Positions 15,704 to 57,355 of a stretch of DNA of 64,000 nucleotides are shown piece by piece (position 1 is the first letter of the stretch; each line of letters opens with the position of its first letter). The notes beneath the pieces are model-generated. The model made no database searches. It was not told the origin of the DNA and saw nothing but the letters and a program-made list of their open reading frames with translations. Source of the stretch: Arthrobacter sp. P2b (GTDB lineage: Bacteria; Actinomycetota; Actinomycetes; Actinomycetales; Micrococcaceae); contig NZ_FVZL01000001.1 in assembly GCF_900168295.1 (NCBI RefSeq), positions 892,134 to 956,133 of the forward strand. The letters are read 5' to 3'. Made by a program: the position numbers and the translations under genes.

Positions 15704-15760
15704 GAAGCCATTGTCTCAAACCCCGGTGTATGCTCCCGCCGCTTCCACCGGCGGCGAACA

Positions 15761-15826
15761 CCCAACCAGGTAGCGCCAAGTGTCACTCTGGGGCCTCAAA
15801 ACGGCAGTTACTGCTACCTGGTTGGG
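15761..15826. repeat. Palindromic element, copy 1
   Basis: 66-bp inverted repeat with perfect 14-bp outer arms CCCAACCAGGTAGC (15761-15774) and GCTACCTGGTTGGG (15813-15826); the inner parts match imperfectly. It lies 6 bp beyond the stop of the second exporter permease (minus strand) and upstream of the 15143-15703 gene. It is the most diverged of four family members in the window. Confidence 0.9.
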
Positions 15827-15832
15827 TCGGCG

Positions 15833-21985: not shown

Positions 21986-22657
21986 ATGCAGGGCATTCCG
22001 GAGCACGCCGACCACGAGGCCGACCTCGCCGTGTTCTATGACCGGGCGGCAGCTGCTGGCAGTACCCGGGCCATGACCCCGCACCGTGTCCAGTGCCGCG
22101 ACCGGTTCATCCGACTCCTGAAGAATGAACACCGGCACTCGCTGTTCGAGCTCGGGTGCGGCACCGGCGTTGAAGGCCTGGAGTTCGTGCGTGCCGGCCT
22201 GCATTACACCGGGGTTGACCTGTCAAGTGAGAGCGTCCGTCTGGCACGCGGCAGGGGCCTCGACGTAAGCGTGGCCAGCGGCCGGAGCCTGCCCTTCCCG
22301 GCCAACTCGTTTTCCGCGGCGTGGACCATGAGCACGCTCCTGCACGTTCCCAACGGCCGGATCCACGACGTCGTCAGCGAGTTGGTGCGGGTCAGCGCAC
22401 CGGGCGCGCCGATCGCCGTCGGACTGTGGTCCGGGAACGATGAGGAAGTCCTGAACCCGGAGGACGACGAGGAGCCGCGCCGGTTTTTCAGCCGTCGCAG
22501 TGATGAGACCGTCCGGCGGATCTTCGGCGAACACGGCGAGGTGGAGCACTTCCAGACCTGGCCGGAGGGTACCGGTGACGAGTCAGGCCCGGGCCGGGGC
22601 GCCTGGAAGCAGCATTACCAGTTCCTTGTCTTGCGAACCCCAAACCCAAGTAAGTAG
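21986..22657 (+). CDS. Class I SAM-dependent methyltransferase
   Basis: Cytosolic methyltransferase of 223 aa, substrate unknown. Motif I is LFELGCGTG (53-61), followed by TGVDLSSESVRLARGRG and the post-motif FPANSFSAAWTMSTLLHVP. It starts 33 bp after purU. The final codons and stop (NPSK then TAG) lie inside palindromic element copy 2, so the present C-terminus is set by that element. Confidence 0.82.
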   Translation: MQGIPEHADHEADLAVFYDRAAAAGSTRAMTPHRVQCRDRFIRLLKNEHRHSLFELGCGTGVEGLEFVRAGLHYTGVDLSSESVRLARGRGLDVSVASGRSLPFPANSFSAAWTMSTLLHVPNGRIHDVVSELVRVSAPGAPIAVGLWSGNDEEVLNPEDDEEPRRFFSRRSDETVRRIFGEHGEVEHFQTWPEGTGDESGPGRGAWKQHYQFLVLRTPNPSK

Positions 22658-22711
22658 CGCAAAGTGTCGTTTAGACACCCCACAACGACAGTTAGCGCTA
22701 CCTAGTTGGGT
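22644..22711. repeat. Palindromic element, copy 2, overlapping a gene end
   Basis: 68-bp inverted repeat. The right arm GCGCTACCTAGTTGGGT is perfect consensus; the left arm ACCCAAGTAAGTAGCGC differs at two positions. The left arm supplies the last codons and the TAG of the methyltransferase gene, and the gamma-carbonic anhydrase gene starts 28 bp beyond the element. Confidence 0.9.
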
Positions 22712-41079: not shown

Positions 41080-42618
41080 ATGAGTTCCAACCTTCACAGG
41101 GGGCTGCTTGGCACCCTCTTTGCCGGCGGGCTTTTGGCCTTCGGCTGCACCGCGGCAAATGCCGCGGATACCACCAGCGGATCGGATCTTTCCGCATCTG
41201 CCCTGATCTCGGCGGCGGCGTCCGCGGATACGGCGTCGTTGGGCCTGCTGGGTGACCCAACGCCGTCCGATTCCACGGGCGTCGCCGCCGTAGCCGCCGT
41301 CGACCTTGGCCTCGGCAACGCTGCGACCACCACGCCGGAAGCACCCGCAACCGACCTCACCGTCGCAGCAGACGCCGTCGTGGACCTCGGCACCAACCAA
41401 GCCACCAGCCCCGACCTCGCTGCAGCAGCCACCGTCGACCTCGGACTCGGCAACGGCCTCGGCAACGCTGGGACCACCACGCCGGAAGCACCCGCAACCG
41501 ACCTCACCGTCGCAGCAGACGCCGTCGTGGACCTCGGCACCAACCAAGCCACCAGCCCCGACCTCGCTGCAGCAGCCACCGTCGACCTCGGACTCGGCAA
41601 CGGCCTCGGCAACGCTGGGACCACCACGTCGGAAGCACCCGCAACCGACCTCACCGTCGCAGCAGACGCCGTCGTGGACCTCGGCACCAACCAAGCCACC
41701 AGCCCCGACCTCGCTGCAGCAGCCGCCGTCGACCTCGGACTCGGCAACACCGGCACCCCCACAACGGAAGCACCCGCAACCGACCTCACCGTCGCAGCAG
41801 ACGCCGTCGTGGACCTCGGCTCTGTTACAGGAGCCGAAGGAGCTAGCGATGGACTTGGGGCTGCTATAGACGCCGCGGTTGACCTCAATCTCGGTGGCAC
41901 CACCACGGACGGACTCGACACCGCCGTAGATGCAGCAGTTGATCTCAACCTCGGCGGCACCACCACCGACGGCACCACCAGCGGACTCGACACCGCCGTA
42001 GACGCAGCCCTCGACCTCAACCTCGGCGGCACCACCACCGACGGCACCACCAGCGGACTCGACACCGCCGTAGACGCAGCCCTCGACCTCAACCTCGGCG
42101 GCACCACAACCAACGGCACCACTGGCAGCACCGGCGGCAACGGCGGTCTCGATCTCGGTGTGGACCTGGGCATTGACCTTGGCCTCGGCACGATCGGCGG
42201 CGACAACGGCACCGGGACGGAAACCCCGGGAACCGACAACCCCGGCACTGAAACCCCGGGTACCGATCCGGTCGACGGCAACACCGGAGGCGTGGGCACC
42301 GTTGATCCCGGCACCAGCACCCCGGGTACCGGTACCGGAAACGGGACCGACACCAACGACACCGAGAACGGGAACGGCACCGGAAACGGTACCGGCACCA
42401 CGGGCACCGGCACCGCGGGTACCGGCAGCATCTCGGTAGCACCTGCCGGGTCCACCGCAGTTGGTGGCGCCATTGCTGCCGACGCTGCCCCCCGCAGCAC
42501 TCCGGCCCAGGGCGCCACGGCGCTGGCCAACACGGGTGTGGACACCTCGCTGATCCCGCTCGCCCTGCTGATCCTGGTGGCCGGACTCCTGATGCTGCGC
42601 AAGCGCAAGGTGTCCTAG
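41080..42618 (+). CDS. Repeat-rich sortase-anchored surface protein (LAXTG type)
   Basis: Surface protein of 512 aa. It has a signal peptide (GTLFAGGLLAFGCTAANA). Three near-identical 49-residue repeats built around EAPATDLTVAADAVVDLG follow, the last leading into a shorter variant. Next come about four 24-residue repeats (LDTAVDAALDLNLGGTTTDG) and a Gly/Thr-rich spacer. The C-terminus LANTG, hydrophobic helix IPLALLILVAGLLML and tail RKRKVS is the wall-sorting signal recognised by class E sortases in high-GC actinobacteria. CAGGAG precedes the ATG. Function is unknown; display or adhesion is an inference. Confidence 0.85.
   Translation: MSSNLHRGLLGTLFAGGLLAFGCTAANAADTTSGSDLSASALISAAASADTASLGLLGDPTPSDSTGVAAVAAVDLGLGNAATTTPEAPATDLTVAADAVVDLGTNQATSPDLAAAATVDLGLGNGLGNAGTTTPEAPATDLTVAADAVVDLGTNQATSPDLAAAATVDLGLGNGLGNAGTTTSEAPATDLTVAADAVVDLGTNQATSPDLAAAAAVDLGLGNTGTPTTEAPATDLTVAADAVVDLGSVTGAEGASDGLGAAIDAAVDLNLGGTTTDGLDTAVDAAVDLNLGGTTTDGTTSGLDTAVDAALDLNLGGTTTDGTTSGLDTAVDAALDLNLGGTTTNGTTGSTGGNGGLDLGVDLGIDLGLGTIGGDNGTGTETPGTDNPGTETPGTDPVDGNTGGVGTVDPGTSTPGTGTGNGTDTNDTENGNGTGNGTGTTGTGTAGTGSISVAPAGSTAVGGAIAADAAPRSTPAQGATALANTGVDTSLIPLALLILVAGLLMLRKRKVS
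41326..41751. repeat. 147-bp tandem repeats in the surface-protein gene
   Basis: Units start at 41326, 41473 and 41620. The first two appear identical over 147 bp; the third has a few changes and lacks 12 bp near its end. A further partial unit follows from about 41752. Near-identity indicates recent duplication and likely length variation. Confidence 0.92.
41911..42126. repeat. 72-bp tandem repeats in the surface-protein gene
   Basis: Units start at 41911, 41983 and 42055 (each GGACTCGACACCGCCGTAGA onward), encoding 24 residues ending GGTTTDGTTS. A degenerate earlier unit lies just upstream. Confidence 0.9.
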
Positions 42619-50489: not shown

Positions 50490-50579
50490 CGTATGTTCCA
50501 ATCGACTGCTCCGTACCGGCCCTTTCCGGAAGCGAAAACGACCGTTACGGAGCAATCGGTGGGGCCAGATCGGTGGGGA

Positions 50580-52265
50580 TTAGTGGAAGAAGTGGCGGGA
50601 GCCGGTGAAGTACATCGTCACGCCGGCGGCGTTCGCTGCCGCGATCACTTCCTCGTCCCGCACGGAACCGCCGGGCTGCACCACGGCGCGGACACCGGCG
50701 TCGATGAGGATCTGCAGGCCGTCAGCGAACGGGAAGAAGGCGTCGGAGGCAGCAACGGCGCCGCGGGCCCGCTGCGGCGCACCGCTCGCATCGGTGTTGG
50801 AGGCACCGCCTGCCCCTTCGACGTCGGACTCCACCTTCACGCCAAGCGTGTTGGCCCGCTCCACGGCAAGGCGGCAGGAATCCAGGCGGTTGACCTGGCC
50901 CATGCCGATGCCGACGGCGGCACCGTCAGCGGCGAGGAGGATGGCGTTGGACTTTGCTGCGCGGCAGGCTGTCCAGGCGAAGGCCAGGTCCGCGAGGGTC
51001 TTTTCGTCAGCGGGGTCACCTGCGGCGAGGATCCAGTTGGCGGGGTTGTCGCCGTCGGCGTCCACCTTGTCGCTGACCTGGACCAGCATGCCGCCGGAGA
51101 CCTGGCGCATTTCGGCCGGGTAGCGGCCGTAGCCCTCGGGGAGCGCGAGCAGGCGGATGTTCTTCTTCTTCGAGAGGATCTCCACGGCTTCCGGCTCGAA
51201 GCCGGGCGCGATGACCACCTCGGTGAAGATGTCCTTGACGGTGTTCGCCATCCCGGCGGTCACGGTGCGGTTGGCTGCGATGACACCGCCGAAGGCAGAG
51301 ACAGGATCGCACGCGTGCGCCTTGGCGTGTGCGTCGGCGATGGGGTCGGCGGCGTCCGCGGACCCTACCGCTACGCCGCACGGGTTGGCGTGCTTGATGA
51401 TGGCCACTGCGGGTTCATCGAAATCGTAGGCGGCCCGGAGTGCGGCGTCGGCGTCCACGAAGTTGTTGTAGCTCATGGCCTTGCCGTGCAGCTGGTCAGC
51501 CTGGGCGATGCCCACCGGTGCAGCCTTGTCCACGTACAGCGCGGCCTGCTGGTGCGGGTTCTCGCCGTAGCGCAGGACCTCTGAGCGCTCCAGCGAAACG
51601 CCGGCGTAGGCAGGCCAGTCGATGACGCCGTCGCCGTCCTCATCAAGGAACTGGCTGGCCGTCCAGGTGGCCACGGCATTGTCATAGGACGCCGTGTGCG
51701 CGAAGGCTTTTGCCGCCAGGCGGCGGCGGGTCTTCAGGTCGAAGCCGCCCGCTGCGGCCGCCTCCACCACCTGGGCGTAAAAGGAGGGGTCAACCACGAT
51801 GGCGACGGCGGCGTGGTTCTTCGCGGCGGACCGCACCATGGCGGGGCCTCCGATGTCGATCTGCTCCACCACGTCGTCCTGCGCCGCGCCGGACTTGACC
51901 GTCTCAACGAATGGGTAGAGGTTCACCACCACCAGGTCGAAGGGTTCAATCTCCATGCTGGTGAGCGTTTCCATGTGCGCCGCCACGCGGCGGTCGGCCA
52001 GGATGCCGCCGTGGACCCGCGGGTGCAGGGTCTTGACGCGCCCGTCCAGCATCTCCGGCGAACCGGTGACTTCCTCGACCTCCTGGACGGGGATGCCGGC
52101 GGCGGCGATCTTCTTGGCCGTGGAGCCGGTGGACACCAGCTTGACCCCAGCTGAGTGCAGGCCCTGGGCGAGCTCCTCCAGACCGGTCTTGTCGTAAACC
52201 GAGATCAGCGCCCGGCGGATGGGAACACGGTCAATGGATACGCGCTCATGCTGCGTGAAGCTCAC
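50580..52265 (-). CDS. purH: AICAR formyltransferase / IMP cyclohydrolase
   Basis: Bifunctional enzyme for the last two steps of IMP synthesis, 561 aa. The N-terminal MGS-like cyclohydrolase domain has [18 protein letters not shown] and [19 protein letters not shown]. The transformylase domain has [14 protein letters not shown] and [12 protein letters not shown] with the catalytic Lys-His. GTG 52265 is preceded by GGAG. It uses 10-formyl-THF, linking it to folD and purU in this window. purN, commonly its neighbour, is about 2.6 kb upstream beyond an interposed segment. Confidence 0.97.
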
Positions 52266-52407
52266 AAATGTCTCCGTCTTATATCGCGGAACAGTGCCGC
52301 GGTTGGTGGGGATAGGCCCAGTTTATCGCGAAGCGCAGGTTGCCCCGCGTGTCAGCCGGAGTGTGAACGCCGGTGGGCGGGGCTAGAGTTTTTCACAGGA
52401 GGCTGCG

Positions 52408-53760
52408 ATGAATACTTACACCACTGTGCCGAGCGGCGAACAGGTGGTCCAGGAACTGCCATGGCGATGGAAAGTCCAGGGCCGGATCTTTCTGATCGGC
52501 GGCCTGGGCTTTATGTTCGATGCCTGGGATGTAACGCTGAACGGCATCCTCATCCCGCTGCTCTCCACCCACTGGGCGTTGACTCCGGGCGAGGTGGCGT
52601 GGGTGGGCACGTCCAACCTCATCGGGATGGCCCTCGGCGCCTTCGTCTGGGGAACCATCGCCGACACCATCGGACGCAAAAAGGCGTTCACCGCCACGTT
52701 GCTGATATTTTCCCTCTTCACCGTCTTCGGGGCCTTCTCCCCCGACTTCATGTGGTTCTGCGTGTTCCGGTTCATGGCCGGCTTCGGCCTGGGCGGATGC
52801 ATTCCGGTGGACTATGCGCTGGTGGGTGAATTCACGCCCCGGAAGCAACGCGGCAAGGTTCTCACTGCCATGGACGGCTGGTGGCCCATTGGCGCGGCGC
52901 TGGCAGGTTTCGTCTCCGCCGGCCTGGTTGCCCTGTACGGCGACTGGCGGCTGACCATGCTGGTGATGGTGCTGCCCGCACTGCTGGTGTTCTGGGTCCG
53001 GCGGAGCGTGCCGGAGTCTCCACTGTTCCTGATCCGCAAGGGCCGGCGCGAGGAAGCGGCCAAGGTGATTGACGGCCTGGTGGCCGCCACCGGAGCGGAA
53101 GCCCGCGCGTACAGCCTGCCGGACGCCCAGGACGTGCCCCGCCTTTCGGCCGGCAGCGCCTGGACCCAGTTGCGTTCCGTGTGGCAGTTCAACTGGAAGA
53201 TCACGGCCGCGGCCTGGGCCCTGTTCTTCAGCATCCTGCTGGTCTACTACCTGTCACTGACGTGGATGCCGCGCATCCTGATCGGCGCCGGGTTCGCCGA
53301 GTACAAGGCATTCGTCACCACCGCGTCCATGGCCGCCGTCGGACTGCTCGGTGTGATCGTGGCCGCCCTCCTGGTGGAGCGGGTGGGCCGCAAATGGATC
53401 CTGGCCATCACCGGTCCCCTGTCCGCGCTGACCCTGGTGATCGTCGCCTTCGTGGTGGACATCCCCACGGCAGCGGTGTTCTGGCTGCTGGTGTTCGGCT
53501 TCGTGGTCCAGGTGGCCATCCCGGTGCTCTACGCCTATGTGTCCGAGCTCTACCCCACCGAGCTGCGGGGCACCGGCTTCGGCTGGGCGTCCACCTTCTC
53601 GCGGCTGGGTGCAGGATTCGGCCCGCTCATCTTCGCGGACTACTTCTGGCCGGAACTGGGCCTGGCCACGTCCTTCGCCCTGGCCGGCGGACTGGTCCTG
53701 CTGGCGGTCCTGTGGATGGCGTTCTTCTCCCCCGAAACCAAACAGCGCCGCCTCGAGTAG
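52408..53760 (+). CDS. MFS transporter (metabolite:H+ symporter type)
   Basis: Twelve-helix major facilitator of 450 aa. Signature segments are GTIADTIGRKKAFTATL (loop 2-3), FMAGFGLGGCIPVDYALVGE and, in the second half, LVERVGRKWILAITG and ELYPTELRGTGFGWAST. These match the sugar/aromatic-acid symporter branch; substrate is unknown. It lies on the strand opposite to purH and purN, between them. Palindromic element copy 3 starts 11 bp after its stop. Confidence 0.88.
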   Translation: MNTYTTVPSGEQVVQELPWRWKVQGRIFLIGGLGFMFDAWDVTLNGILIPLLSTHWALTPGEVAWVGTSNLIGMALGAFVWGTIADTIGRKKAFTATLLIFSLFTVFGAFSPDFMWFCVFRFMAGFGLGGCIPVDYALVGEFTPRKQRGKVLTAMDGWWPIGAALAGFVSAGLVALYGDWRLTMLVMVLPALLVFWVRRSVPESPLFLIRKGRREEAAKVIDGLVAATGAEARAYSLPDAQDVPRLSAGSAWTQLRSVWQFNWKITAAAWALFFSILLVYYLSLTWMPRILIGAGFAEYKAFVTTASMAAVGLLGVIVAALLVERVGRKWILAITGPLSALTLVIVAFVVDIPTAAVFWLLVFGFVVQVAIPVLYAYVSELYPTELRGTGFGWASTFSRLGAGFGPLIFADYFWPELGLATSFALAGGLVLLAVLWMAFFSPETKQRRLE

Positions 53761-53770
53761 CCCCCGCCCC

Positions 53771-53840
53771 TTCCCAACTAGGTAGCGCCAACTGTCGTTT
53801 TGGAGCCCCATTACGACACTTCGCGCTACCTAGTTGGGAA
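53771..53840. repeat. Palindromic element, copy 3
   Basis: 70-bp inverted repeat with perfect 18-bp arms TTCCCAACTAGGTAGCGC (53771-53788) and GCGCTACCTAGTTGGGAA (53823-53840). It sits between convergent genes, and its right arm encodes the final residues (PTR) and TAG of the PD-(D/E)XK-like protein. Confidence 0.95.
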
Positions 53841-54764
53841 CCAGCCCCGGGAAAGTAGGGCCTGCCGCACCTTGCCCACGGCCGTCCGCGCATCGTTTTC
53901 CATATGCAGCTTTGAGATGCGGACCAGCAACCAGCCAGCGCGGCAGTAGTCCTCCTCGCGGGTTATGTCCCGCACGATTCGGCCGGGGTCCGAGTGCACC
54001 TCACCGTCGTACTCCACAGCCACCTTCTGTTGCGGGTAGCTCATGTCAGGTTGGCGTACGACGCCGGGCCTCAAGGCGGTAGGTACGTTCAGTTCCGGTT
54101 CGGGCAGTCCGCTGTCCCTTATGGCAAGCCGCAGACGCGTTTCGGGCGCAGAGTCCGAGCCGACTTTTGCCTGCTCCAGAGCGAGCCGGGCTTTCCTGAT
54201 GCCCGGCGTGCCTTTGTGCCGGTCCAGCATGTCCTCCAGAACCTCAAGGGTTGCGAAGGGGTCCGAGCGGCCCTCCAAGTCCGGCCGCGGGATACGCAGG
54301 AGGTGGTCAGCCACAACTGTCAGCTCATTGATGCTCATCAACCGGGAGCAGTCGAGCCATGTCCTGGCCCGGGTTGTGATCAGCAGCCCATGCAGTGTAG
54401 TGATTTCATCGGCAAAGAACTGGCCTCGATGCCCCTTCACGCCGGGCCGGCGCATGATCGCCACGGAGTCAGGGCGGGAGACGTGGAGCAGCGGGACGTC
54501 TGTTCCCGGCATGTATCCAGGAAACTGCCACAACAGGAATGCGGAGGCGTGGGAGGCGGCAGCAAGATCCGTCACCAGGGTGTACGGGCGGATTTGTGGC
54601 CCAAGGTCGGAGGTATCGGTCGCCTCGGGCACCCGGACTCCGCGGCTGGGCCGCTGCAGCCCTTGGTGACGGAGCCTCCGCTGGCTGATGCCGGCGTCGG
54701 CCGCTTCCTGCAGAGTGAATGGAAGCGAAGCCAAGGGTTCGGGAAGAGGGGCTGGAACCTTCAT
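53826..54764 (-). CDS. Protein with C-terminal Vsr/DUF559-like PD-(D/E)XK domain
   Basis: Protein of 312 aa from ATG 54764 (MKVPAPLPEPLASLPF); TTG 54791 is also in frame. The N-terminus has a helix-turn-helix-like segment (TLQEAADAGISQRRLRHQG), as in AbiEi-like proteins of actinobacteria. The C-terminus resembles a Vsr-like nuclease: RQPDMSYPQQKVAVEYDGEVH, then RDITREEDYCRAGWLLVRISK. Function is unknown. A sample at 54301-54420 is 66/120 G+C, lower than neighbouring purN. The gene is bracketed by two palindromic elements, one of which provides its stop codon. Confidence 0.75.
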   Translation of the reverse strand: MKVPAPLPEPLASLPFTLQEAADAGISQRRLRHQGLQRPSRGVRVPEATDTSDLGPQIRPYTLVTDLAAASHASAFLLWQFPGYMPGTDVPLLHVSRPDSVAIMRRPGVKGHRGQFFADEITTLHGLLITTRARTWLDCSRLMSINELTVVADHLLRIPRPDLEGRSDPFATLEVLEDMLDRHKGTPGIRKARLALEQAKVGSDSAPETRLRLAIRDSGLPEPELNVPTALRPGVVRQPDMSYPQQKVAVEYDGEVHSDPGRIVRDITREEDYCRAGWLLVRISKLHMENDARTAVGKVRQALLSRGWFPTR

Positions 54765-54829
54765 GAACCCATCGTTACAGCCGAGAGCCAACGCTACGGC
54801 GGTTATCCACAGGTAGGCCCCGGTCTGCT

Positions 54830-54891
54830 CAACTAGGTAGCGCTAACTGCCGTTTTGAGGGGTCAAAACGGCAGTTAGCGCTACCTAGTTG
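54830..54891. repeat. Palindromic element, copy 4 (perfect)
   Basis: Perfect inverted repeat: 29-bp arms (54830-54858 and 54863-54891) starting CAACTAGGTAGCGCTAACTG, with loop GGGG. It begins 6 bp beyond the purN stop and lies upstream of the PD-(D/E)XK-like gene. Confidence 0.97.
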
Positions 54892-54896
54892 GGAGG

Positions 54897-55469
54897 CTAG
54901 GAGGCAGGGCTGGCGGCGAGGCTTGCCAGGGTGGATACCAGCAGCCGGCGTTCCACCACCTTGATGCGCTCGTGGAGGGTTTCCTCGGTGTCGCCGTCCT
55001 CGATGGTGACGGCTTCCTGGGCGATGATGGGACCGGTGTCCACACCGGCGTCGGCCCAGTGCACCGTGCAGCCTGTGACCTTCACCCCATACGCCATGGC
55101 ATCCCGCACGCCGTGGGCTCCCGGGAAGGCGGGGAGCAACGCCGGGTGGGTGTTGAGGTACCGGCCATGGAAGGTGTCGATAAATTCTGCGCTGACGATC
55201 CGCATAAAGCCCGAGGAGACCACAACGTCCGGGGCGTAGGAGGCCACCCGCGCGGTAAGCGCGGCATCCCATTCGTCCCGGGTGGGGAACGAGTTGAAGT
55301 TGACCACGAACGTCTCCAGCCCGGCTTCGGAGGAACGCTCGACGCCGTACGTCCCCTCGCGGTCCGCGCCCACGGCAGCGATCTCGACGTCGAGCTCCCC
55401 TGCCTTGACCGCGTCGATGACTGCCTGGAGGTTGGACCCGGTTCCGGAAACGAGGACTACGATGCGCAT
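54897..55469 (-). CDS. purN: Phosphoribosylglycinamide formyltransferase
   Basis: Adds a formyl group from 10-formyl-THF to GAR in purine synthesis, 190 aa. The N-terminal IVVLVSGTGSNLQAVIDAV and the catalytic run GRYLNTHPALLPAFPGAHG followed by GCTVHWADAGVDTGPIIAQ are diagnostic. ATG 55469 diverges from the small membrane protein gene. A palindromic element lies right after its stop. Confidence 0.96.
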   Translation of the reverse strand: MRIVVLVSGTGSNLQAVIDAVKAGELDVEIAAVGADREGTYGVERSSEAGLETFVVNFNSFPTRDEWDAALTARVASYAPDVVVSSGFMRIVSAEFIDTFHGRYLNTHPALLPAFPGAHGVRDAMAYGVKVTGCTVHWADAGVDTGPIIAQEAVTIEDGDTEETLHERIKVVERRLLVSTLASLAASPAS

Positions 55470-55508
55470 TGGTCTAGCTTATGGGCACGCTCGCGTAGGC
55501 TGGAAAAC

Positions 55509-55940
55509 ATGAACAGCACCCCGGAACCGGCGCAGCAGCAGCGGACCAAACCTCCGCTCAGCGAAGCAGCGAAAGCCTCGCTCGCCCGGACCCACACCCT
55601 GTTCCGGATGTTCGTCGTTTCGGTTCTTGGCGCGTTCTTCGTCTACCAGCTCGACGTCAACTACCTCTGGCTGACAACCATCCTCACCGTCGCCAGCCTG
55701 GTCTTGGGCGTACTCCTGCTGGTCCGCTCGGCACGCTTGAGGGAGTCCAGGCTGGTCCTCATCGGCACCATCTCGGGCCTGGTGGTCTCCGCGATCCTGG
55801 TGCTGCTGATTGTGGTGACGGCGGTGTTCTTCGACGAAGTGCGCACCTACCAGGAATGCGTTGGCCGGGCCCTCACGGACCAGGCCCAGTCCGCATGCCG
55901 GGTGCAGCTGGAACGTTCACTGCCCACCCAGCTCCCGTAG
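55509..55940 (+). CDS. Small membrane protein, function unknown
   Basis: Protein of 143 aa from ATG 55509 with three probable helices (MFVVSVLGAFFVYQL, YLWLTTILTVASLVLGVLLL and LIGTISGLVVSAILVLLIVV) and a short soluble tail with two cysteines (YQECVGRAL, SACRVQLE). I do not recognise the family. It is divergent from purN and convergent with the DUF6350 gene. Confidence 0.75.
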   Translation: MNSTPEPAQQQRTKPPLSEAAKASLARTHTLFRMFVVSVLGAFFVYQLDVNYLWLTTILTVASLVLGVLLLVRSARLRESRLVLIGTISGLVVSAILVLLIVVTAVFFDEVRTYQECVGRALTDQAQSACRVQLERSLPTQLP

Positions 55941-55966
55941 GACAGCAGGGGAAACGGCGCAGCAAT

Positions 55967-57355
55967 TTAGCGGACCAGGTCCGCCGCGTCCTCTACGTTG
56001 ACAGCCCGCTCGCGCTCCAGCCATGGGCCGGCCGCGTAACCGATAACGACGCCGGCACCCACCTCCGCCGCCACCCAGACTCCCGTCCAGAAGGGGTCAG
56101 GACCAATGGCCGTCAGGCGTCCAATCCCGGCCGAGCCCCCGGCCAGCCACGCGAGCGCTACGGTCAGCAGTCCCGCGGCCAGTCCTGTCAGCGCCCCCAG
56201 CACCAATGTGGATGCCGTTGCCGTGAACCAGCGTGCCCGGATTTTGATGGACAGCCATTCGTCGAAATGATTCTCGCCTTCGCGCAGGAACCACCAGCCG
56301 GCCAAAACACCGGCCAGCACGGGGACCACCAGGGCAACGAAGGCGTAGTCCAGCGGCCCGCTGGGGATCGCCGCCAGCACGGGAATGGAGGGCAGCGGCC
56401 CGACGGCGGTGCCCAGCGGACTCACCTGGGAACCGACGCCCACGGCAAAGCCTGAGCCCGATATCCAGGCGAGGGCGAAAACCACCAGGTTGGGCAGGTA
56501 GCCGAGCTGTGCAACGGTGAGGGCGGCACCTCCGACAGCGCCGGCGTCGAGCGCTTCATAGACGGCAACCACAAGGTTCCAGTGGATGAACAGGTCCACC
56601 GCCAGCAGCGCCGAGGCAAGCGCAAGGGCAGACACGATGGCCACAAAACCTGCCTTCGCCGCCGACGCAAGGTAGGAGCCCGCCCAGCGTGAGTGCTGGC
56701 TGGTCCGCGAAATCCAGTCCACGGCGTCGACGCCGATGAGCCGGCTCCAGGACCCGGCCTCGCGGCGGGCACCGACCACCATTCCCAGGGCGTAGGGAAC
56801 CAGGGGAACCAGCAGGGCGTATCCCAGGTTGATCGCGACGTCGGCGGTGCGGCAGATGAAACCGGTGGCCGCACCAAAGGCTGCATACACCACCCACGAT
56901 CCCAGCAGGGCTTGCCAGAGCTGATCAGTATACGAGGCGCGCGCCAGACGCCGTCCGGCGCGCCAGGCCAGGAGGAACGGTATAAGTGTCAGGCCCAGCG
57001 GTATGAGCGTCAGGAATTTACCGTCCGCCTGGGCGGCTGTGCCGGATCCTGCGGCGGTGAGCTCAAGCGGTACCCCGTGAACCAGCAGCCAGGACTGGCC
57101 GGCCAGCCGCGCGAGGACGTCGAACTGCGCGTTCTGGAAGCCCGCGGTGGCCCAGACGGCAATGATCGGAACCATCACCACCAGGGCGGAAATGAACGCT
57201 GCCTGGGCCGTTTCGAGGGCACCCTGCAGCCATAGGGGCATGGGAAGGCCACGGTCTCCGGTCTGATCAGCGCGCAGTTTCATCGTGTTCCATGGTGTCA
57301 CGCCCGGACCTGCCTGCCCGGAAGCGACAGGCTCCGCGCCCGTCTCGAAACTCAC
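55967..57355 (-). CDS. DUF6350-like polytopic membrane protein
   Basis: Hydrophobic protein of 462 aa, with about ten helices, start GTG 57355. It matches the actinobacterial DUF6350 family (related to cell-division protein PerM) by size, composition and its common place beside purN. Segments include LPLLTLIPFLLAW-type helices and a late FDEWLSIKIRARW loop. Biochemical function is unknown. The reading frame ends at 55967. Confidence 0.7.
   Translation of the reverse strand: MSFETGAEPVASGQAGPGVTPWNTMKLRADQTGDRGLPMPLWLQGALETAQAAFISALVVMVPIIAVWATAGFQNAQFDVLARLAGQSWLLVHGVPLELTAAGSGTAAQADGKFLTLIPLGLTLIPFLLAWRAGRRLARASYTDQLWQALLGSWVVYAAFGAATGFICRTADVAINLGYALLVPLVPYALGMVVGARREAGSWSRLIGVDAVDWISRTSQHSRWAGSYLASAAKAGFVAIVSALALASALLAVDLFIHWNLVVAVYEALDAGAVGGAALTVAQLGYLPNLVVFALAWISGSGFAVGVGSQVSPLGTAVGPLPSIPVLAAIPSGPLDYAFVALVVPVLAGVLAGWWFLREGENHFDEWLSIKIRARWFTATASTLVLGALTGLAAGLLTVALAWLAGGSAGIGRLTAIGPDPFWTGVWVAAEVGAGVVIGYAAGPWLERERAVNVEDAADLVR

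Follow-up and report, generated by a model that had tools for sequence, protein, structure and literature searches.

REP repeats, as described in one passage of PMC8266576, are palindromes of 20–50 nt preceded by a tetranucleotide, most often GTAG. In REPtrons, features of which are also described in part of PMC3733652, cognate palindromic repeats flank a resident RAYT (TnpA-REP) gene, which encodes an HUH/Y1 enzyme, and are also dispersed between genes; the repeat type fits the resident gene, and there are several families per genome. The same part of PMC3733652 covers TIRtrons, in which the gene of a tyrosine transposase lies between long terminal inverted repeats able to form repeat families. 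The EDxHD homing endonuclease I-Bth0305I, according to an excerpt of a review (PMC3943268), forms a dimer on its target, which spans nearly 60 bp. PMC12306157 includes an Arthrobacter species in a table of REP counts computed for a survey, and hence palindromes in this genus have been counted previously; the passage concerned names no enzyme. In the excerpt of PMC12907096, a Vsr-like protein that contains DUF559 underlies a DNA-damage response in Caulobacter, and palindromes are mentioned neither there nor in the excerpt of PMC10448857. Among the papers listed by searches of the PMC literature, outside which lie most subscription papers and all preprints, we found no report associating palindromes with an AbiEi-nuclease protein.

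The locus considered here belongs to Arthrobacter sp. P2b (genome 4.89 Mb) and lies in a stretch of 64,000 nt that was analyzed as a whole, hereafter the window. Like a REPtron, it consists of a resident gene flanked by palindromes that also occur dispersed between genes, with a repeat type that fits the gene and several families in one genome. Unlike a REPtron, it encodes an AbiEi-like domain joined to a Vsr/EDxHD-fold nuclease, its repeat is a single full palindrome of 62–68 bp rather than a short tagged hairpin, and a DnaA-box sequence stands ahead of the gene. It shares with TIRtrons the placement of a gene between repeats, but TIRtrons have a tyrosine transposase, and each end is here a complete palindrome. 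The unit works like a REPtron yet is none, lacking both the enzyme and the repeat form that define the class; in these two respects it is new within the limits of the literature covered.

The gene (53826–54764, minus strand; 312 aa), called from the open reading frames and from domain and fold matches, sits between purN (54897–55469, minus strand) and a gene for an MFS-like transporter (52408–53760, plus strand; MFS models, below cut-off). The first-pass annotation had placed it between purN and purH, which is right as to position, but the MFS-like gene also separates it from purH (50580–52265, minus strand; like purN, above the NCBIfam cut-off). The same annotation had the gene bracketed by two palindromes, and we find them at 70 and 68 bp. 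The downstream palindrome (53771–53840) has 33-nt arms that are 88% complementary and takes in the stop codon of the gene (53826–53828); the upstream one (54827–54894), centered 96 bp before the start codon, has 29-nt arms that are 100% complementary. As single-stranded DNA, they are predicted to fold with –27.7 and –37.3 kcal/mol, respectively, and 0 of 200 shuffles of either fold as well. The claim that the gene itself is low in G+C did not hold up: at 64.2% it falls in the 33rd percentile of stretches of equal length, the window as a whole having 65.3%, and low G+C is confined to the palindromes (52.9%). A known RNA family can be set aside for this region, as Rfam returned no match at the gathering threshold in window positions 52000–56500. 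Elsewhere in the window, tandem coding repeats with units of 147 and 72 nt occupy positions 41308–42122.

The protein falls into an N-terminal AbiEi-like domain (residues ∼1–200) and a C-terminal nuclease domain of Vsr/EDxHD fold (∼203–312). The Vsr/DUF559-like character of the C-terminus, noted previously, recurs in Pfam matches to MTES_1575 (E 6.7e-5) and DUF559 (E 0.022), both of which fall under the curated cut-off. Profile searches gave 3hrl (E 3e-6) and 3r3p, which is I-Bth0305I (E 0.005); Foldseek gave no solved structure at E ≤ 0.001, its best being again I-Bth0305I at E 0.01. In an AlphaFold2 model built from a 60-sequence alignment (pLDDT 92.5), predicted residues 205–308 superpose on the catalytic domain of I-Bth0305I with Z 9.8 (rmsd 2.4, 95 aligned), and on Vsr with Z 6.9 (rmsd 2.6, 96 aligned), a value below Z 8, under which resemblance may be due to chance. 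E208, D240, H257 and D266, which we take to be the residues of the EDxHD motif, are each conserved in 59 of the 60 sequences. The model thus combines a predicted catalytic fold with conserved E, D, H and D, as in EDxHD homing endonucleases, although I-Bth0305I has no counterpart to the AbiEi-like half, the palindromic flanks or the free-standing chromosomal setting found here. Vsr/DUF559 endonucleases likewise share the fold but lack the extra N-terminal domain and the palindromes, and the protein scores only 14.5 bits against the cut-off of 97.85 for the Vsr model TIGR00632. The N-terminal 200 residues match AbiEi antitoxins (PADLOC, E 1.7e-11; predicted residues 2–200, Z 8.1, rmsd 5.5, 178 aligned); here, however, the domain is fused to a nuclease, and the neighbors in the window are purN and the MFS-like gene instead of a toxin gene, no AbiEii gene being adjacent. 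A median dN/dS of 0.166 (279 pairs among 58 intact genes) shows, at the level of codon comparisons, that the gene is under purifying selection.

We searched 150 genomes of the genus, of which all 150 have PurN and 148 have a homologue of the protein at E ≤ 1e-20, and fetched 80 stretches; these were chosen mostly by purN position and hence favor that site. Fifty-eight near-full orthologue loci from 57 genomes were retained, including the window and two loci from one genome (G121) and excluding truncated or broken copies (G097, G063, G017) and matches below 60% identity. An upstream palindrome (at least 18 of 30 pairs) is centered 92–98 bp before the start codon in 57 of the 58, and 51 have a downstream palindrome as well (at least 20 of 30 pairs). 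Among the 61 loci initially listed, the upstream center lies at 94–97 bp in 58, and the downstream center falls exactly 24 bp past the stop codon in 41, placing the stop codon within the arm. The spacing is the same at sites other than purN and in units inverted at purN (G004, G016). In a set of 80 named loci, mainly from Arthrobacter, Pseudarthrobacter and Paenarthrobacter (29 proteins repeat the first set and 51 are new), 72 have the upstream palindrome, 60 the downstream one and 56 both, with 8 other palindromes in 356 kb; in four of these loci the sequence stops before a downstream palindrome could be seen.

Fifty of the 80 named loci adjoin purN/MFS, and the remaining 30 fall into 12 context groups. 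These counts, and the MFS-like gene that is there too, give no support to the earlier picture of an insert splitting purN from purH, and a fresh insertion at purN can be rejected, as the arrangement recurs among the fetched relatives. Origin as a plasmid or phage gene was likewise rejected, with matches to 6 plasmid records and 1 phage record. Judged from these comparisons, the arrangement is an old one in which many genomes have the gene at purN. Gene-less relatives have short gaps or other palindromes at purN; in two of them the gap is 48 bp and the junction is not clean, and neither a target-site duplication nor a clean empty site was resolved among the gene-less relatives compared there. 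Five gene-less relatives (L198, L201, L203, L204 and L207) carry palindromes of other sequence in the purN–MFS gap. PurN and PurH (window 50580–55469, compared with relatives) do not share the same closest relatives, suggesting a recombination breakpoint close to the palindrome-gene unit.

In the P2b genome, 48 half-sites were found at up to 3 mismatches, compared to 0 for the reversed control over 4.89 Mb. They resolve into at least 28 palindromes, a lower bound because another pattern found 63 half-sites. Two solo members of the family lie in the window, at 15758–15827 and 22642–22711 (repeat and pattern search). Based on a crude coding model, the neighboring genes are convergent for 12 of the 28, codirectional for 13 and divergent for 2, and 1 palindrome falls in a weak ORF. 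In 24 of the 28, the 3′ end of a gene is within 61 bp of the palindrome center, and in 6 the distance from the center to the end of the neighbor's stop codon is exactly 24 bp, which means that the palindrome supplies this codon. Co-variation between the arms of 27 of these elements is modest (699 agreements; 2000 shuffles gave a mean of 675.4 and a maximum of 700). The window also holds a solo palindrome of a second family, 3′ of purH (50499–50562), which belongs to the family bracketing a 45%-identical paralogue on another contig (C26). Its presence varies among relatives, and at two loci (L169 and L168) a further repeat family (CCCCACCGG...GGGCCCA) is nested inside the second-family palindrome in the purH 3′ flank; this nested insertion could give exact junctions.

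One could read these settings as regulatory, with the palindrome an operator for the AbiEi-like domain, the downstream copy a terminator and the dispersed copies a regulon or a set of terminators. The fixed upstream distance, the predicted AbiEi-like fold and the strong predicted hairpins near gene 3′ ends would all suit such a role. Yet by the crude gene model hardly any of the copies lie between divergent genes, the nuclease residues are conserved, and the number of half-sites varies from 0 to 162 between genomes. We regard this regulatory reading as improbable.

The sequence of the palindrome differs between clades, and we distinguished types A–F. The arms of types A and B contain GTAG, which the consensus of C, D and E lacks. 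The two palindromes of one locus are alike, differing at 11.3 positions in 68 compared to 23.8 between loci (n = 51). Types A–E were counted in 150 genomes each, with reversed-pattern controls giving 0 or 1 per genome and strand. Comparison of dispersed and flanking copies kept 38 of 40 genomes, 36 of which could be typed, and in 32 of these the dominant dispersed type is the flanking type; 10,000 shuffles gave a mean of 10.8 and a maximum of 21. Several observations count against a simple link between protein and repeat. Four of the 36 genomes (G020, G077, G028 and G046) have another dominant dispersed type, and four others (G119, G143, G093 and G112) hold 15–33 half-sites of type A or B with no close orthologue. 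The dispersed profile, moreover, tracks species at least as well as protein (partial r 0.319 and 0.253, respectively; 6 of 4999 permutations for the latter). In some genomes the gene is present but dispersed copies of its type are nearly absent, as in G084, which has 1.

Further loci in the P2b genome show the same layout. At E ≤ 0.01 there are five, 28–45% identical and one of them frameshifted. Palindromes lie on both sides of three of them and only upstream of two, with a different sequence at each locus. No palindromes were found elsewhere in the 57 kb around these loci, and the shuffled control gave 0 in 144 kb. We then turned to the host's class, where a homologue at E ≤ 1e-15 was found in 240 of 393 sampled genomes, representing 97 of 130 genera. 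At 87 class-level loci (27 best matches and 60 picked by hand from the match list; threshold of at least 18 of 25 pairs), a palindrome is present upstream in 53, downstream in 55, on both sides in 40, on at least one side in 68 and on neither in 19, against a background of 30 other palindromes in 292 kb. For the 40 loci with both, the members of a pair differ at 14.8 positions per 60, compared to 38.5 between loci, and 33 pairs fall below the first percentile. At one homologue (L333), several near-identical palindromes surround the gene.

The first-pass annotation had named three kinds of finding that would speak against a partnership of gene and palindrome, and two of them weigh against it in part: palindromes in the four genomes without a close orthologue, and an old, recurrent arrangement at purN that already includes the gene. 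The third, homologues that lack palindromes, is seen upstream at 1 of the 58 near-full loci and on both sides at 19 of the 87 class-level loci. We take the gene-less palindromes and palindrome-less homologues to reflect an old association that has partly been lost or has decayed.

Evidence for recognition comes from co-variation, which was assessed by Mantel tests on the 40 of 51 loci with PurN, PurH and MFS in the stretch. As the loci are related and matrix permutation leaves some shared history, the permutation counts given here are not strict probabilities. Palindrome distance follows protein distance with PurN, PurH and MFS controlled (partial r 0.696, 0 of 4999 permutations, n = 40), and species distance adds nothing (–0.136). 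Residues 1–200 carry the signal (partial r 0.773 given nuclease domain and species, 0 of 2999), whereas the nuclease domain, residues 203–312, gives –0.109 (2802 of 2999). When 110 N-terminal columns were drawn at random, r stayed near 0.778, compared to 0.316 for the nuclease domain, and in sliding windows the correlation drops beyond about residue 140. For the downstream palindrome alone, the N-terminal domain has a partial r of 0.675 (0 of 1999) and the nuclease domain –0.155. In these alignments, linkage alone does not explain the co-variation, because the downstream palindrome abuts the nuclease-coding end and yet tracks the N-terminal domain, the opposite of what linkage predicts. Recognition of the palindrome by the protein is well supported by this pattern. 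A one-residue recognition code at position 113 (R with GT arms in 48 of 52, V with CT arms in 37 of 40, and 7 with other residues) was rejected as a finding, since the tree shows just 4 and 5 changes with 2 supported independent pairs and no significance can be reached; we keep it as a lead.

These data also bear on whether some other enzyme spreads the palindromes, the gene merely having been trapped between two copies. Such hitchhiking would fit the palindromes in genomes without a close orthologue and the coexistence of several palindrome families. Against it stand the constant spacing, the co-variation with the N-terminal rather than the nuclease domain, the paralogues with palindromes of their own and the recurrence of the association over the host's class. 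A search of the Y1 family argues in the same direction: no Y1 transposase (PF01797) was found in the P2b genome at E ≤ 0.001, whereas control genomes matched in 5 of 14 cases, and a RAYT-type mover was rejected on this ground. Profile searches gave no Y1 match for the 312-residue protein or its 17 relatives. We consider hitchhiking very improbable.

A further recurrent feature lies between the upstream palindrome and the gene. The sequence TGTGGATAA, which we take to be the DnaA-box consensus, occurs on the gene strand (minus) at 54803–54811, 47 bp before the start codon, as the sole exact copy in the window. Of 59 orthologues, 56 have an exact copy 45–47 bp upstream of the start codon, without exception in the same orientation. 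Four paralogues in the P2b genome were examined; three (L047, L048 and L049) have it exactly, and the best match in the fourth (L051) has 2 mismatches. The fetched stretches (566 kb) hold 66 exact copies, of which 56 occupy the pre-gene position; of the other 10, 5 lie ∼45 bp ahead of paralogues that are more distant and 3 ahead of degraded copies. At the class level, 14 of 87 loci have an exact copy and 21 a copy with one mismatch, compared to 0.3% and 1.8% of random stretches. The sequence could instead be part of a promoter.

Collectively, we favor, as fairly probable, the view that the locus is a REPtron-like unit built on an unrelated nuclease. The REP/RAYT-like layout and new repeat-nuclease partnership proposed in the first-pass annotation gain strong support from the fixed spacing, the N-terminal co-variation, the match between dispersed and flanking types and the paralogues with their own palindromes. 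That protein and palindrome are partners, one recognizing the other, we hold to be very likely from the comparisons at hand; on balance, we also infer that the 312-residue protein spreads the palindromes. The AbiEi-like domain would recognize the palindrome, to which the protein probably binds as a dimer whose subunits each take one arm, and the nuclease domain would nick or cut at or near it. The two flanking palindromes would be the ends of the unit and, because such ends are symmetric, the gene could lie in either orientation. Processing and repair would copy palindromes to new intergenic sites, mostly near gene 3′ ends, where a copied palindrome can provide the stop codon; the dispersed palindromes would be non-autonomous copies, and expression may be linked to replication via the DnaA box. 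We know of no strand-transfer step for a hydrolytic nuclease, and for this reason the route of copying is unexplained.

Many of the same features could belong to a homing system. In this view, a dimer of the nuclease would home to the palindrome; solo copies would be cut and then repaired with the gene-bearing copy as template, so that palindrome, gene and palindrome are inserted together. The solos would then have spread by another route or be remnants of lost units. The nuclease domain is closest to that of I-Bth0305I, the long target bound by that enzyme as a dimer is in keeping with this idea, symmetric sites account for both orientations (the inverted units above), and the named loci occupy 12 contexts besides purN. 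However, a genome usually has one orthologue yet tens of half-sites, and the arrival of solos at unrelated sites is left unexplained. We think homing unlikely, though it deserves mention.

A REPtron-like unit that copies its palindromes could also be one case of something broader, namely an independently evolved second REP-type system, made up of AbiEi-EDxHD nucleases with homologues in 97 of the 130 sampled genera, each recognizing and spreading its own long palindrome and timed by DnaA. We advance this tentatively, as a possibility that falls a little short of probable. Dispersed palindromes in many bacterial genomes have, to our knowledge, no known enzyme, and for several families together a candidate cognate protein can now be named. 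It has a metal-dependent nuclease fold for which the PMC searches gave no link to repeat spread. The family offers many naturally matched pairs of protein and DNA sequence from which recognition rules may be derived, and the question of how such repeats move becomes directly testable. A bracketed nuclease gene with dispersed palindromes may represent a mobile repeat system of a new type in actinobacteria and, if this is true, the REP/RAYT arrangement would have arisen at least twice, by unrelated chemistry.
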